Shown: positions 574 to 49,039 of the stretch, in pieces
Position numbering within the stretch: position 1 is the stretch's first letter
Layout of the letters: each line of letters begins with the position of its first letter
Source of the DNA: Alternaria dauci
Lineage: Eukaryota > Ascomycota > Dothideomycetes > Pleosporales > Pleosporaceae
Direction of reading: 5' to 3'
Assembly: GCF_042100115.1 (NCBI RefSeq)
Contig: NC_091272.1
Span: 2,046,001 to 2,110,000 of the forward strand
Length of the DNA: 64,000 nt
The notes under the pieces: generated by a model
Told to the model about the DNA's origin: nothing
Databases searched by the model: none
The model's input: the letters and a program-made list of their open reading frames with translations, nothing else
Made by a program: the position numbers and the translations under genes

Positions 574-590
574 ACCCTTCTATTAATACC
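574..590 (+). repeat. Target-site duplication of F1-1, left copy
   Basis: The 17-bp word acccttctRttaatacc occurs here (R = a) and again at 1537-1553 (R = g), directly flanking the truncated F1-1 copy. The single mismatch is a G/A transition as RIP would make. The length differs from the 13 bp seen at other F1 copies. Confidence 0.75.
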
Positions 591-1536
591 TACTTAATAC
601 GATTATAAGATAGGGATAAGCTAGCTAAGGACCTACTACAGCTATCTATTATAGTCCCTACTTATAACTATCTTAATATACACCTCTTACTCTATTATAA
701 GCGTGCCCCTAGCTACTATTATATTACTTAGCTTCTTAATGCGAACGTTCTACTCTATAGTAATAGATAACCTTACTTCTATATTTATCCTAGTGCTAGC
801 TAGTAAAGCGATACTACCTAGGCGAATAAGAGTTATAGTAAATAAGCTATCTATATAGAAGAGAATTTTATATTAGTCCTTAGTAGTATTATCTAATAAG
901 TTTAGAAAGGAGAGGTAGGTGTCTAGGAAGGGGCTTAAGACACTATAAGGCTTAAGATTATTATAGTTTAAGCTAATTTAATCCTTAGTGTACTAGTGCT
1001 TTACGTCTACGTTAGTATTAATATTAAGTACTATCTATAACTCTAGGAATAGCTGTTTAATACCTATAGCGCGATTATACATTATAAGGCGTATAGTATT
1101 AAAGAAGGTATTTCTCTTTAGTAGTAAGCTTTAGGATAGAGGTAAGTCTAGGTACCTAAAGTGTTCGCTTAAACCTTAGGCTAACCCGCACTAAGTGTTA
1201 AAGTAGAAGTTAAGAAATAGAAATTTAAAGAGTTACTTAAATATTTCTATAGCCTTAAGTACTATAGTTACGAGCCTAGAGGTAAGCTATAAACTACAGT
1301 TATTAACTAAAAAACTCCTCTTCTACTTTAACTCCTCTTCTCCCTAACGTCGCTATAACTATCTAGAACCGCTTAAAGTTTAGGGCTTTAGTTTTAACCT
1401 ATCTATTATTAAACTATATATAGCTATATATAGCACAAATAGGTATTTAGGAAATATACCTTTACTATAATTTATTATAGTATCTTTTAATAGTGTTATA
1501 CTTACGTCTTTTACTAGCACGTTTATTATTTAAATT
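591..1536 (+). mobile_element. F1-1: truncated, RIPed copy of the F1 element
   Basis: It aligns along its whole length with the clean F1 copy from about 33348 to 34238, with nearly all differences being C-to-T or G-to-A. The left third of the element is missing, and the right end (tttaaat) is intact and followed by the target duplication. It belongs to the subfamily with agaaccgcttaaag near 1370 and a longer spacer near 1300. It also carries a 54-bp insertion (1142-1195) absent from other copies and a small 6-bp deletion near 1231. The minus-strand frame seen in the clean copy is destroyed by stops. Confidence 0.85.
1142..1195 (+). other. 54-bp indel with intron-like signals
   Basis: Compared with the other F1 copies, 54 bp are inserted exactly between ggatagag and tgttaaag. 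Read on the + strand, the insert begins GTAAGT, has ctaac (1181-1185) 10-14 nt before its end, and ends AG. These are the 5' splice site, branch site and 3' splice site expected of a short fungal intron, although the final AAG is a weak acceptor. The length is also a multiple of three, and on the minus strand it could be 18 extra codons if its stops are RIPed Gln codons. Both readings remain open. Confidence 0.4.
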
Positions 1537-12848: not shown

Positions 12849-14215
12849 CCCCCTAGGCCTTAGGGATAGGGCCTATAGTATAATCTTATATTATTTTACT
12901 AAGAAATTTTAAAACTAAGCCTAAACTATCCTAGTATATTTAGAAGTCTCTTTTTACCTATAATACCTCTCTATTTATCCCTTATACTACACCTAGCGAC
13001 ACCGCCTTAACGTCCCTACTATTATAATTACTATTAATACTACCTAGAGATTAAGAAGCTCTATTATATTATAGTAATTATATTTTAAGAGCGTAAGCAC
13101 TACTACTATTATAATTATAGTTATAGTTATAGTTATAGTTATAGTTATAATTATAATTATAATTATAATTCCCTTTAAGCGTCTAGAAAGCTTATATATT
13201 AGTAGTACTCTTACCTAAACTCCTCTACAGCCGCTACGCACCTAAGTCCTATCGCGCCGTATCCTAAGCCTCCCGCGTTATTATTATTATTATTAAATTA
13301 ATTATTAGCTATACCTACTTAATATAATTATAAGATAGGGATAAGCTAGCTAAGGACCTACTATAGCTATCTATTATAGTCCCTACTTATAACTTTCTTA
13401 ATATATACCTCTTACTCTATTATAAGTATACCCTTAGCTACTATTATATTACTTAGCTTCTTAATATAAATATTCTACTTTATAGTAATAGATAACCTTA
13501 CTTCTATCTTTATCCTAGTACTAGCTAGTAAAGTAATACTACTTAAGTAAATAAGAGTTATAGTAAATAGGCTATCTATATAGAAGAGAATTTTATATTA
13601 GTCCTTAGTAGTATTATCTAATAAGTTAAGAGAGGAGAGGTAGGCGTCTAGGAAGAGGCTTAAGATACTATAAGGCTTAAGATTATTATAGTTTAAGCTA
13701 ATTTAATCTTTAGTATACTAGTACTTTACGTCTACGTTAGTATTAATATTAAGTACTATCTATAACTCTAGGAATAGCTGTTTAATACCTATAGCGCGAT
13801 CGCACGTTATAAGGCGTATAGTATTAAAGAAGGTATTTCTCTTTAGTAGTAAGCTTTAGGATAGAGTGTTAAAGTAGAAGTTAAGAAGTAGAAATTTAAA
13901 GAGCTAGTAGTTACTTAAATATTTCTATAGCCTTAAGTACTATAAATATAAGCTTAGAGGTAAGCTATAAACTATAGTTATTAGCTAAAAAACTCCTCTT
14001 CTACTTTAACTCCTCTTCTCCCTAACGTCGCCGCGACTATCTAGAACCGCTTAAAGTTTAGGGCTTTAGTTTTAACCTATCTATTATTAAACTATATATA
14101 GCTGTATACAGTAAAAATAGGTGTTTAGGAAACACACCTTTACCGCGATTTATTATAGTATCTTTTAATAGTGTTATGCTTACGTCTTTTACTAGCACGT
14201 GTATTATTTAAATAG
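12849..14215 (+). mobile_element. F1-2: full-length RIPed F1 copy
   Basis: It runs from the polyC-taggccttaggg left end to the tttaaat right end and matches the clean copy 32898-34238 throughout. Differences are overwhelmingly RIP-type transitions. It lacks the 54-bp insertion of F1-1. It belongs to the same subfamily as F1-1 (agaaccgcttaaag, 'aaaaaactcctcttctac' spacer). Some CG, CA and TG survive near the right end (14100-14215), for example aggtgtttaggaaacacacc, so RIP was not uniform along it. It interrupts the decayed frame 11200-16100. Confidence 0.9.
13110..13172 (+). repeat. Hexanucleotide microsatellite inside F1-2
   Basis: This is a run of ttatag/ttataa hexamers corresponding to the tcacag/ttacaa hexamers at 33150-33208 in the clean copy. 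The CA-to-TA changes show RIP acting on a pre-existing repeat. Confidence 0.8.
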
Positions 14216-32884: not shown

Positions 32885-32897
32885 TAGTAAGACTTTA
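32885..32897 (+). repeat. Target-site duplication of the clean F1 copy, left
   Basis: tagtaagacttta here is identical to 34239-34251. The base composition changes abruptly from RIPed to normal immediately after it. Confidence 0.88.
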
Positions 32898-33149
32898 CCC
32901 TCTGGGCCTTAGGGATGGGGCCTACAGTGTCATCTCATATTGCGTTGCCAAGAAATTTTGAAACTAAGCCTGAACTGTCCTAGCGTATTCAGAAGTCTCT
33001 TTTTGCCTATAACACCTCTCCGTCCATCCCCCACATCACGCCCTGCACCGCCTCAACATCCCCACTATCACGATCACTGCTAATACTACCTAGAGATTAA
33101 GCTCTATCGCATCGCAGCAATCACATTTCAAGAGCGCAAGCACCGCCGC

Positions 33150-33208
33150 TATCACGATCACAGTCACGGTCACAGTTACAATTACAATTACGATTACAAT
33201 TACAATTC
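33150..33208 (+). repeat. Hexanucleotide microsatellite of F1, unmutated form
   Basis: Imperfect tcacag and ttacaa hexamers run from gatcacagtcacgg to the tttaagcgg junction. In RIPed copies the same place is ttatag hexamers (13110) or 9-mers (49676, 52565). Confidence 0.8.
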
Positions 33209-33361
33209 CCTTTAAGCGGCTACAAAGCCTATACATTACTATCGCCTAAACTCCTCCGCAGCCGCTACGCACCTAATAGGTCCTATTGTGCCGTATCCTA
33301 AGCCTCCCGCGTCATCATCGTCGTTGTCGAATCGATCGTCAGCCGTACCTACTCGATACGA

Positions 33362-34009
33362 TCACAAGATGGGGATGAGCTGGCCGAGGACCCACCACAG
33401 CCATCCATCGTAGTCCCCGCTCATGACCATCTTGACATACGCCTCTTGCTCTATCGTGAGCGTGCCCCCAGCCGCTATCATGTCACTCAGCTTCTCGATG
33501 CGAACGTTCTGCTCTACAGCAACAGATGACCTCGCTTCTGTGTTTATCCCGGTGCTGGCCAGCAAAGCGACGCTGCCCAGGCGAACAAGAGTCACGGCAA
33601 ACGGGCCATCCGTGTGGAAGAGAATTTCATATTGGTCCTCAGTGGTATCATCCGACAAGTTCAGAGAGGAGAGGCAGGCGTCCAGGAAGGGGCTCAAGAC
33701 ACCATGAGGCTTGAGATCATCGTAGTTCAAGCTGATTTGATCCTTGGTGTACCAGTGCTTTGCGTCTGCGTCGGTGTCGACGTTGAGTGCCGTCTGCAAC
33801 TCCAGGAATGGCCGCTCGACGCCCATGACGCGATCGCACGTCACAAGGCGCATGGTGTTGAAGAAGGTGTTTCTCTTTGGTGGTAAGCTTCGGGATGGAG
33901 TGTTGAAGTGGAAGTTGAGAAATGGAAATTTGAAGAGCCAGCAGTTGCTCAAATATTTCTTCATTCTCGAGTACCATGGTCGCGAGCCTGGATGCGAGCC
34001 ATGGACCAT
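33362..34009 (-). CDS. Hypothetical protein of the F1 element
   Basis: This is the only sizeable open frame in the window: 215 codons from the first Met. A second Met at codon 53 (33853) gives a 162-residue form that looks more protein-like throughout, and I consider that start at least as likely. The N-terminal 52 residues are basic and aromatic and could be an upstream read-through. The 162-residue part is acidic in the middle (DTDADAKHWYTKDQ, then a DDTTEDQYE block). It has a hydrophobic Val/Leu-rich segment and a C-terminal DYDGWLWWVLGQL stretch. No known domain, catalytic triad, zinc finger or signal peptide is evident. RIPed copies have multiple stops in this frame. The frame is antisense to the inferred retroposition polarity of F1, so it may be a captured gene or fortuitous. 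Function is unknown. Confidence 0.45.
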   Translation of the reverse strand: MVHGSHPGSRPWYSRMKKYLSNCWLFKFPFLNFHFNTPSRSLPPKRNTFFNTMRLVTCDRVMGVERPFLELQTALNVDTDADAKHWYTKDQISLNYDDLKPHGVLSPFLDACLSSLNLSDDTTEDQYEILFHTDGPFAVTLVRLGSVALLASTGINTEARSSVAVEQNVRIEKLSDMIAAGGTLTIEQEAYVKMVMSGDYDGWLWWVLGQLIPIL

Positions 34010-34118
34010 GGTTTGAAAACTCCTCTTCCCCCCAAACTCCTCTTCTCCCCAACGTCGCCGCGACTTTCCAGAACCTCCTGAAGTTCAGGGCTTTGGCTTC
34101 AACCCATCTATTGTCGAA

Positions 34119-34124
34119 TATATA
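34119..34124 (-). promoter_or_regulatory. Possible TATA box for the F1 minus-strand frame
   Basis: TATATA on the minus strand lies 110 nt upstream of the first Met and about 265 nt upstream of Met53. It is kept in every F1 copy that reaches this point, but AT-rich context makes a chance match possible in the RIPed copies. In the clean copy it stands out from GC-balanced surroundings. Confidence 0.35.
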
Positions 34125-34145
34125 CAGCTGCATACAGTGAAAACA

Positions 34146-34166
34146 GGTGTTTGGGAAACACACCTT
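34146..34166. promoter_or_regulatory. Conserved imperfect palindrome of F1
   Basis: The outer arms are AGGTGT and ACACCT, with an inner TGTTT-ggg-AAACA. It is conserved in F1-2 (near 14120) with its CA/TG retained, and recognisably in other copies. It could be a protein-binding site or an RNA hairpin near the element's right end. The role is unknown. Confidence 0.4.
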
Positions 34167-34238
34167 TACCGCGATTTATCACAGTGTCTTTCAACAGTGT
34201 TGTGCTTGCGTCTTTTACCAGCACGTTTATCATTTGAA

Positions 34239-34251
34239 TAGTAAGACTTTA
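34239..34251 (+). repeat. Target-site duplication of the clean F1 copy, right
   Basis: tagtaagacttta is identical to 32885-32897. RIPed sequence resumes immediately. Confidence 0.88.
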
Positions 34252-47645: not shown

Positions 47646-49039
47646 ATTTAAATAATAAACGTACTAGTAAACGACGTAAGTATAATACTATTAAAAGATA
47701 CTATATTAAATTATAGTAAAGGTATATTTCTTAAACACCTATTTTTACTATATATAGCTATATATAGTTTAATAATAGATAGGTTAAAACTAAAGCCCTA
47801 AACTTTAAGTAGTTCTAGATAGTTATAGTAACGTTAGGGAGAAGAGGAGTTAAAGTAGAAGAGGAGTTTTTTAATTAATAACTATAGTTTATAGCTTACC
47901 TCTAGGCTTATAACTATAGTACTTAAGGCTATAGAAATATTTAAGTAACTACTAGCTCTTTAAATTTCTATTTCTTAACTTCTACTTTAATACTCTATCC
48001 TAAAGCTTACTACTAAAGAGAAATACCTTCTTTAATATTATACGCCTTATAATATATAATTACGTTATAAGTGTTAAGTAGTAATTCCTAGAGTTATAGA
48101 TAGTACTTAATATTAATACTAATACTAATATAGACGTAAAGTACTAGTATATAAAGGATTAAATTAGCTTAAACTATAATAATCTTAAGCTTTATAGTAT
48201 CTTAAGCCCCTTCTTAGATACTTACCTCTCTTCTCTTAACTTATTAGATAATACTACTAAGGATTAATATAAAATTCTCTTCTATATAGATAGCCTATTT
48301 ACTATAACTCTTATTTACCTAAGTAGTATTACTTTACTAGCTAGTACTAGGATAAATATAAAAGTAAGGTTATCTATTACTATAGAGTAGAATATTTATA
48401 TTAAGAAGCTAAGTAATATAATAGTAGCTAAGGGTATACTTATAATAAAGTAAGAGGCGTATATTAAGATAGTTATAAGTAAGGACTATAATAGATAGCT
48501 ATAGTAGGTCCTTAGCTAGTTTATCCTTATCTTATAATTATATTAAGTAGGTATAGCTAATAATTATACGTATAGGGTAGGTATTAAAAAGGTAGTAGAT
48601 AATTAATTTAATAATAATAATAATAATATAGGAGGCTTAGGATATAGTATAATAGGACTTATTAGGTGCGTAGTAGCTATAGAGGAGTTTAGGTAATAGT
48701 ACTACTAATATATAGGCTTTATAGCCGCTTAAAGGGAATTATAATTATAACTATAACTATAACTATAATTATAATAGTAGTAGTACTTACACTCTTAAAA
48801 TATAATTACTATAATATAATAGAGCTTCTACTTAATCTCTAGGTAGTATTAGTAGTAATTATAAAAGTAGGGACGTTAAGGCGGTATAGATAGGCGTAAT
48901 ATATAGGATAGATAGAGAGGTATTATAGGTAAAAAGAGACTTCTAAATACGCTAGGATAGTTTAGGCTTAGTTTTAAAATTTCTTAGTAATATAATATAA
49001 GATAACACTATAAGCCCTATCCCTAAGGCCTAGGGGGGA
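47646..49039 (-). mobile_element. F1-7: full-length RIPed F1 copy, reverse
   Basis: It runs from the complement of the right end (atttaaataataaac) to the complement of the left end (ccctaaggcctagggggga). It belongs to the F1-1/F1-2 subfamily and lacks the 54-bp insertion of F1-1. Its microsatellite (48735-48775) is short. Confidence 0.9.

Follow-up and report, generated by a model that had tools for sequence, protein, structure and literature searches.

A stationary, many-intron RNA gene as the probable source of spliced, tailless retroposed copies in Alternaria dauci

The locus described here raises the question of how a stretch of DNA of normal composition came to lie inside a block saturated with RIP, and from what source it was made. 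The window, by which we mean the whole 64,000-nucleotide stretch of contig NC_091272.1 that was analysed (positions 2,046,001 to 2,110,000), holds 1341 bp at 32898..34238 on the forward strand that are bounded on the left by tagtaagacttta (32885..32897, forward strand) and on the right by the same 13 bp (34239..34251, forward strand), the two repeats being perfect. As set out below, this element is a retroposon copy made up of the 18 joined exons of a gene on contig C3, without its introns.

The window element and its family

Within the element TA/AT is 0.69 and (CA+TG)/(AC+GT) is 1.25, the corresponding values being 2.15 and 0.0 in the 1 kb to its left and 1.85 and 0.01 in the 1 kb to its right, and CA and TG are absent from the 100 bp on either side. 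Because the dinucleotide ratios switch there and the adjoining 100 bp contain neither CA nor TG, the RIP boundary coincides with the 13-bp repeats, in agreement with the initial annotation, which had described a clean 1341 bp between identical 13-bp repeats with the RIP signature starting at the very next base. When the two flanks are joined (80+80 bases, with a single 13-mer), they align without a break to 10 places, at 89-98% identity across no fewer than 154 of the 160 bases, the best being C4:214526-214685 at 98%, and an 11th uninterrupted match spans 126 bases. Since ten other places carry both flanks unbroken with one 13-mer, the block is an insertion, and the 13-bp repeats, which both the duplication test and the empty paralogous sites identify as target-site duplications, are not a coincidence. 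The element therefore entered one copy of an already RIPed repeat, which supports the earlier proposal that insertion postdates RIP of the flank. Neither terminal inverted repeats nor LTRs are seen at the element ends, as the annotation had stated, and the ends, CCCTCTGGG.. and ..CATTTGAA, are by eye not the inverted repeats that mark a DNA transposon or MITE.

Related RIPed sequence occurs at 12 further places in the window, by our own grouping of the matches, in which some fragments are possibly parts of one copy; at least ten such copies had been claimed. Three of these are long: a copy at 587..1534 (forward strand) that retains intron 13 of the source, window positions 1070-1232 aligning unbroken to exon 13, intron 13 and exon 14; a full-length copy at 12849..14212 (forward strand) with an 18-bp duplication containing one mismatch; and a full-length copy at 47647..49037 (reverse strand) with a 15-bp duplication. 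The rest are fragments.

A search of the 34.9-Mb genome (10 contigs) with the 1341-bp unit, as the annotation had proposed, returns at least seven clean full-length copies at 95-100% identity, and the next-best copy is only 76% identical among the 40 candidates scored; as these were 40 of 219 first-look candidates, the genome copy counts are minimum values. When the antisense reading frame described below is used as a protein query, 71 matches result: the seven clean copies, three segments of a single source locus, and a further 61 that all contain stop codons, some of these being pieces of one copy. Among the 20 copies tested, 18 carry target duplications of 11-18 bp, which contain one mismatch in two cases; the exceptions are L010, which has none, and W49451, whose end is undefined. 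The claim of a mobile family with recent activity is borne out. The 5' start is almost fixed and is preceded by 0-2 extra bases (C, TC or CC), and the 3' end is fixed: all 17 retrocopies shown terminate in TTTGAA or its RIPed form (one base off in L010) without a poly(A) tail, while the tail of L003 reiterates TTGAA. Insertion prefers TT^ATA, with T at -1 in 15 of 18 copies and A as the first duplicated base in 14 of 18. The target duplications and the fixed tailless 3' end point to target-primed reverse transcription.

Two of the clean copies, L006 and L007, occupy the identical base in two RIPed repeats that are paralogous and have flanks 90-91% alike, and 19 other copies of that target repeat are uninterrupted, which indicates a sequence preference in target choice unless gene conversion was involved, as it might have been. 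L008 (C3:113118-114519) is a RIPed copy inside unRIPed flanks (GC 0.44), so there RIP struck the insertion itself and insertion is not restricted to AT-rich blocks. The 251-bp L012, in DNA of GC 0.52 and with a perfect 16-bp duplication, connects exon 2 to the interior of exon 16 at a 3-nt microhomology; it is an internally deleted cDNA, produced by deletion or template jump, and alternative splicing is ruled out by the position of that microhomology inside exon 16. A search of open-licence papers found no description of the family.

Separate matches lie near contig ends, where the last ~220 bp of the element, spliced and 90% identical, are found at C1:3192-3411 (unit L025) and in 14 further matches near the ends of C1-C4. 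In units L013 and L025 they adjoin a large helicase-like CCHC frame, and on C1, C3 and C4 the matches recur about every 25 kb. A subtelomeric array of an 18-bp unit (gggcttcttagttactta-like) occupies L025:60-1130, immediately after the telomere repeat.

An intron-bearing source gene and its spliced copies

The source gene is at C3:2815991-2818209 on the forward strand and has 18 exons and 17 introns of 44-60 bp, with a spliced length of 1320 and a longest exon of 176 bp. Its splice sites, which were placed by hand from the alignment, give 16 GT-AG introns and one GC-AG intron, all on the + strand, and a loose branch-type motif occurs in 16 of the 17. The locus lacks a flanking target duplication, the 1 kb upstream of it is unique in the genome, and its composition is normal, with GC near 0.5 throughout. 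Because it holds the same sequence cut by 17 introns and is without a target duplication, the copies are spliced cDNAs. The source introns are precisely missing from the copies in the processed-retrocopy test, save for a few old ones that keep one or two; at least six old copies do so: those at C9:722895 and C3:408599 retain introns 2 and 3, those at C4:203351 and C1:44214 retain intron 3, L019 retains intron 16, and the window copy noted above retains intron 13. The clean copies also vary at exon junctions by CAG, GAG, CAGCAG or CCAG, mostly at tandem splice sites of the source. Taken together, the missing introns, the retained introns and the tandem splice-site differences show that the family arose by reverse transcription of RNA that was mostly spliced. 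The recently mobile family of the initial annotation thus stands, but its source is a stationary 17-intron gene and not another copy of the element.

No second intron-bearing source was found in a search for exons 2-8. The spliced RNA has stops in all three sense frames and no long sense frame, and with no Pfam match in the antisense frame either, the element encodes no EN-RT. The last exon folds no better than shuffled RNA (z 0.74), and Rfam gives no match at the gathering score in L009 or in the window.

Exons 9-14 (window 33345..33937, forward strand) are invariant in the seven clean copies and the source, with 0 of 593 sites variable compared with 71 of 447 in exons 1-8 (Fisher p 3e-28) and 16 of 280 in exons 15-18 (p 9e-9), in a count that skips columns missing from the source and leaves out L012. 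Of the transitions, 56 of 70 are in CpA or CpG context, and therefore the source alleles appear to have been lightly RIPed, exons 9-14 excepted; within the antisense frame 65 silent RIP-type changes are possible and none is seen. Among old copies (n=16, with the low-similarity, misaligned window stretches W53503, W55070 and W45403 dropped), shared non-RIP differences number 12 of 447 in exons 1-8, 4 of 593 in exons 9-14 and 12 of 301 in exons 15-18. Selection on how well the RNA is copied, a recent sweep or a function of exons 9-14 as RNA could account for their invariance. The variants of the clean copies are arranged as mosaics, which points to several recombining source alleles. Each clean copy differs from the present C3 allele by 50-67 sites and none matches it, so other source alleles made them. 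Exon-wise shuffling was rejected as the cause of the mosaics, and allele recombination is more likely, because the switches also occur inside exons 6 and 7.

In the same genome, 26 RVT_1 matches on C1-C5 and C7-C10 have equal scores and no internal stops, 19 of them in a 1391-codon frame, and represent a recently amplified element that escaped RIP. One of these (C10:1587989) sits inside an interrupted RIPed copy of the present family at C10:1584060-1592466. Together with the clean copies, these 26 matches point to the recent phase without effective RIP that had been claimed from the window. DNA methyltransferase matches are present at three loci. The source gene is not heavily RIPed despite its abundant homologous copies, and we note, as an idea and without claim, that its dense introns may keep it below the length that RIP detects. 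In Neurospora, RIP sums homology across several hundred bp, and interrupted homology of a few hundred bp can be enough (PMC4858203).

An antisense reading frame in the copies

On the reverse strand of the element, at 33362..33853, there is a frame of 163 codons plus stop, within an open run of 240 codons, that in the C3 source is cut by introns 9-12 of the sense strand. Upstream of it, on the same strand at 34117..34124, lies TATATATT, which by its motif alone is a candidate TATA box; it straddles the junction of exons 17 and 18, is broken up in the source gene and takes shape when those exons are joined. It may be that the frame was formerly a gene, now caught in antisense, or that it acts as a gene only once retroposed; it may also be a fossil. 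If the frame were a retroposition-dependent gene, it would be off in the source through the sense introns and switched on in fresh copies, where it might act as a sensor of copy number; this is compatible with the explanation that we prefer below, and we entertain it tentatively, as a minority possibility. The 163-aa frame is identical in 7 of 7 clean copies, and its CACCATG start (the ATG being preceded by CACC) and the TATATATT created at the exon junction would fit such a gene. Its GC by codon position (0.58/0.38/0.73) is of coding type, with a chi-square of 39 that is reached by 0 of 20000 base shuffles, and the periodicity weakens beyond the limits of the frame; a chi-square of 27 is, however, attained by a stretch of repetitive, noncoding DNA upstream of the RNA gene. 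Its codon-usage score, likewise of coding type, is 0.108 per codon, against a mean of 0.134 (minimum 0.005) for coding windows taken from the same four genes as the codon table, and at most -0.086 for 66 noncoding windows, which overlap one another and were cut from two stretches next to the RNA gene; on the sense strand, however, the mirror frame scores 0.097 and yet contains stops.

Chance openness and the pattern of change also weigh against a gene of this kind. Shuffling produces an ATG frame of 163 codons in 87 of 3000 trials, and an open run of 240 codons in 8 of 3000. In a set of 36 distinct old copies, non-RIP differences recur in at least three copies at 11 sites of the frame (6 at third, 3 at second and 2 at first positions), and only 4 of these are wholly synonymous. 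Indels in the frame are of two types, both 6 bp, in 9 of the 36; conservation of the frame in old copies was rejected as proof of coding, since indels are rare anyway. The synonymous sites of exons 9-14 are invariant too, and protein constraint alone does not explain this. No homolog of the predicted protein was found at E 0.001 among 124 candidates, it has no Pfam match, in line with the annotation's statement that no known protein domain is visible, and its best PDB match is at E 1.8. A structure model made without an alignment is too poor to interpret (pLDDT 47.9).

The arrangement resembles the man-made retrotransposition-indicator cassettes (mneoI and mhis3AI), in which an antisense frame holds a sense intron and is restored after splicing and insertion. 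The antisense frame of the C3 family is likewise interrupted by sense introns and restored only after those two steps, but it is natural, has four introns in the frame, and its function is putative.

Neighbouring enzyme genes, mechanism and comparison with known systems

Upstream of the RNA gene and on the same strand is an EN-RT gene whose main open frame of 1102 codons (C3:2810836-2814142) matches Exo_endo_phos_2 and RVT_1 in Pfam. The frame ends 1.85 kb before the RNA gene, and the modelled end is ~1.2 kb before it; a splice-site trial extends the start and adds short introns and a C-terminal zinc knuckle, in a predicted model for which several splice choices preserve the frame. Divergent to it, on the reverse strand at C3:2808124-2809737, is a gene for a 538-aa CCHC protein that is gag-like by its zinc knuckles and belongs to no Pfam family. 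Genome searches return only itself for the gag-like gene, and itself plus one 31-37% relative in two pieces for the EN-RT, so that each is single copy and, with the two on opposite strands, they do not form a collinear mobile LINE. The relative is a second, diverged EN-RT locus at C3:3101427-3104419 with one stop within the match, and it could be the enzyme supplier; its composition is normal, and it has a zinc-knuckle-like tail of its own. Its 3' side has no significant match to the element (best E 0.5) that would indicate a common tail. There are 112 RVT_1 matches in the genome, of which, by match span, only the two C3 loci were taken as LINE-like, and heavily RIPed LINEs may go undetected by such a search. 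In searches with ~8000 candidates scored each, A. burnsii has homologs of the EN-RT (80% over 74% of the query) and of the gag-like protein (56% over 99%), and A. novae-zelandiae has one of the gag-like protein (40% over 73%).

The main reason for connecting the EN-RT with the RNA gene is that the only close EN-RT gene adjoins the only source gene. The explanation that we consider best overall, and probable, is that the stationary C3 RNA gene is spliced, copied by a LINE-type EN-RT and inserted as full-length tailless cDNA. The gene at C3:2815991-2818209 would be transcribed and spliced, and the enzyme would be a LINE endonuclease/reverse transcriptase, most likely encoded by the single-copy EN-RT gene that lies upstream in the same orientation; the gag-like protein with zinc knuckles, whose gene is divergent, would be a putative helper. 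The endonuclease would nick target DNA at TT^ATA-like sites, reverse transcription of the spliced RNA would be primed at its fixed 3' end, and the full-length tailless cDNA would be inserted with a target duplication of 11-18 bp. The resulting copies would be without introns and without the upstream promoter region of the source, and RIP would destroy them later. Splicing, target duplications, fixed ends, one intron-containing source, single-copy EN-RT and gag-like genes and the empty sites are the evidence for this course of events; from it we infer that C3 is transcribed, that this EN-RT and gag-like protein do the work, and that a LINE has been split into enzyme genes and a template gene. 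Enzyme and template appear to be separate fixed genes, and the C3 locus would then be a sedentary LINE whose fixed enzyme genes copy a separate RNA gene.

It is rather unlikely that this is instead an ordinary processed-pseudogene family, in which an abundant spliced host noncoding RNA is copied in trans by any LINE and the nearby EN-RT is coincidental. Spliced retrocopies with target duplications fit that account, and in Magnaporthe the WEIRD RNA is copied by the machinery of the MGL LINE, though as chimeras (PMC2104539). However, one RNA dominates and has one fixed tailless end, the sole other EN-RT relative found is only 31-37% identical and is on the same contig, and the RNA gene is less than 2 kb from the only close EN-RT gene, for which the chance of random placement in 34.9 Mb is ~1e-4 by our own estimate. 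Intron gain at C3 may have predated the copies, but that C3 is a secondary copy which gained its 17 introns in an introner-like manner, the intronless form being ancestral, is very improbable even though the intron density is extreme and the antisense frame is readable only without introns, given that C3 lacks a target duplication, that source introns survive in old copies and that the tandem splice-site differences require splicing.

Our preferred reading, of a fixed RNA gene copied by a LINE-type enzyme, has likenesses in several known systems. SINEs are non-autonomous, are mobilised in trans and have a fixed 3' end, and the C3 family shares all three features, but it is spliced, has a 17-intron source and lacks an Rfam match. 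Fungal Tad-type LINEs encode a gag-like protein and an EN-RT with a zinc-knuckle tail, as the C3 locus does; in the latter, however, gag and EN-RT are on opposite strands, the EN-RT has introns, and both are single copy, the searches having returned no copies of either. Among described cases, the closest that was found is WEIRD/MINE, again a noncoding RNA copied by LINE machinery in a fungus: WEIRD is ~1.1 kb, the LINE itself is mobile, and two elements are described as having direct repeats of 12 and 14 bp, in an account whose main text does not contain the word 'intron' (PMC2104539). No solo copies of WEIRD were found there, and it occurs only fused to other retroelement copies (PMC2104539), whereas the copies of the C3 family end at their own tail, 18 of them having that tail followed by the target duplication with no fusion to a LINE 3' part. 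Mammalian tailless retropseudogenes lack an A tail and are truncated (PMC5322556), and these and processed pseudogenes resemble the C3 family as cDNA insertions with target duplications and no A tail; the family differs in its one dedicated source beside an EN-RT, its mostly full-length copies and its one fixed end. A dedicated intron-rich source beside a stationary EN-RT gene is absent from the parts of the WEIRD and tailless retropseudogene accounts used here (PMC2104539, PMC5322556).

A fuller version of the preferred reading, in which a stationary LINE-derived enzyme locus copies a noncoding gene, an antisense protein gene exists only after splicing, reverse transcription and insertion, and the dense introns also cut the homology that exposes the source to RIP, is in our judgement improbable. 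If the antisense frame is real, it would be a natural counterpart of the laboratory reporter for counting retrotransposition. In LINEs the RNA for the enzyme serves as its own template, and in telomerase a fixed RT gene is paired with a separate RNA template gene. The C3 locus likewise seems to pair a fixed RT gene with a template gene that is separate and fixed as well, but what it gives rise to are dispersed insertions. Why C3 genes that do not copy themselves persist is a directly testable question, and the many-intron source, set against its RIP-attacked intronless copies, makes it possible to ask whether a gene can be hidden from RIP by its introns.
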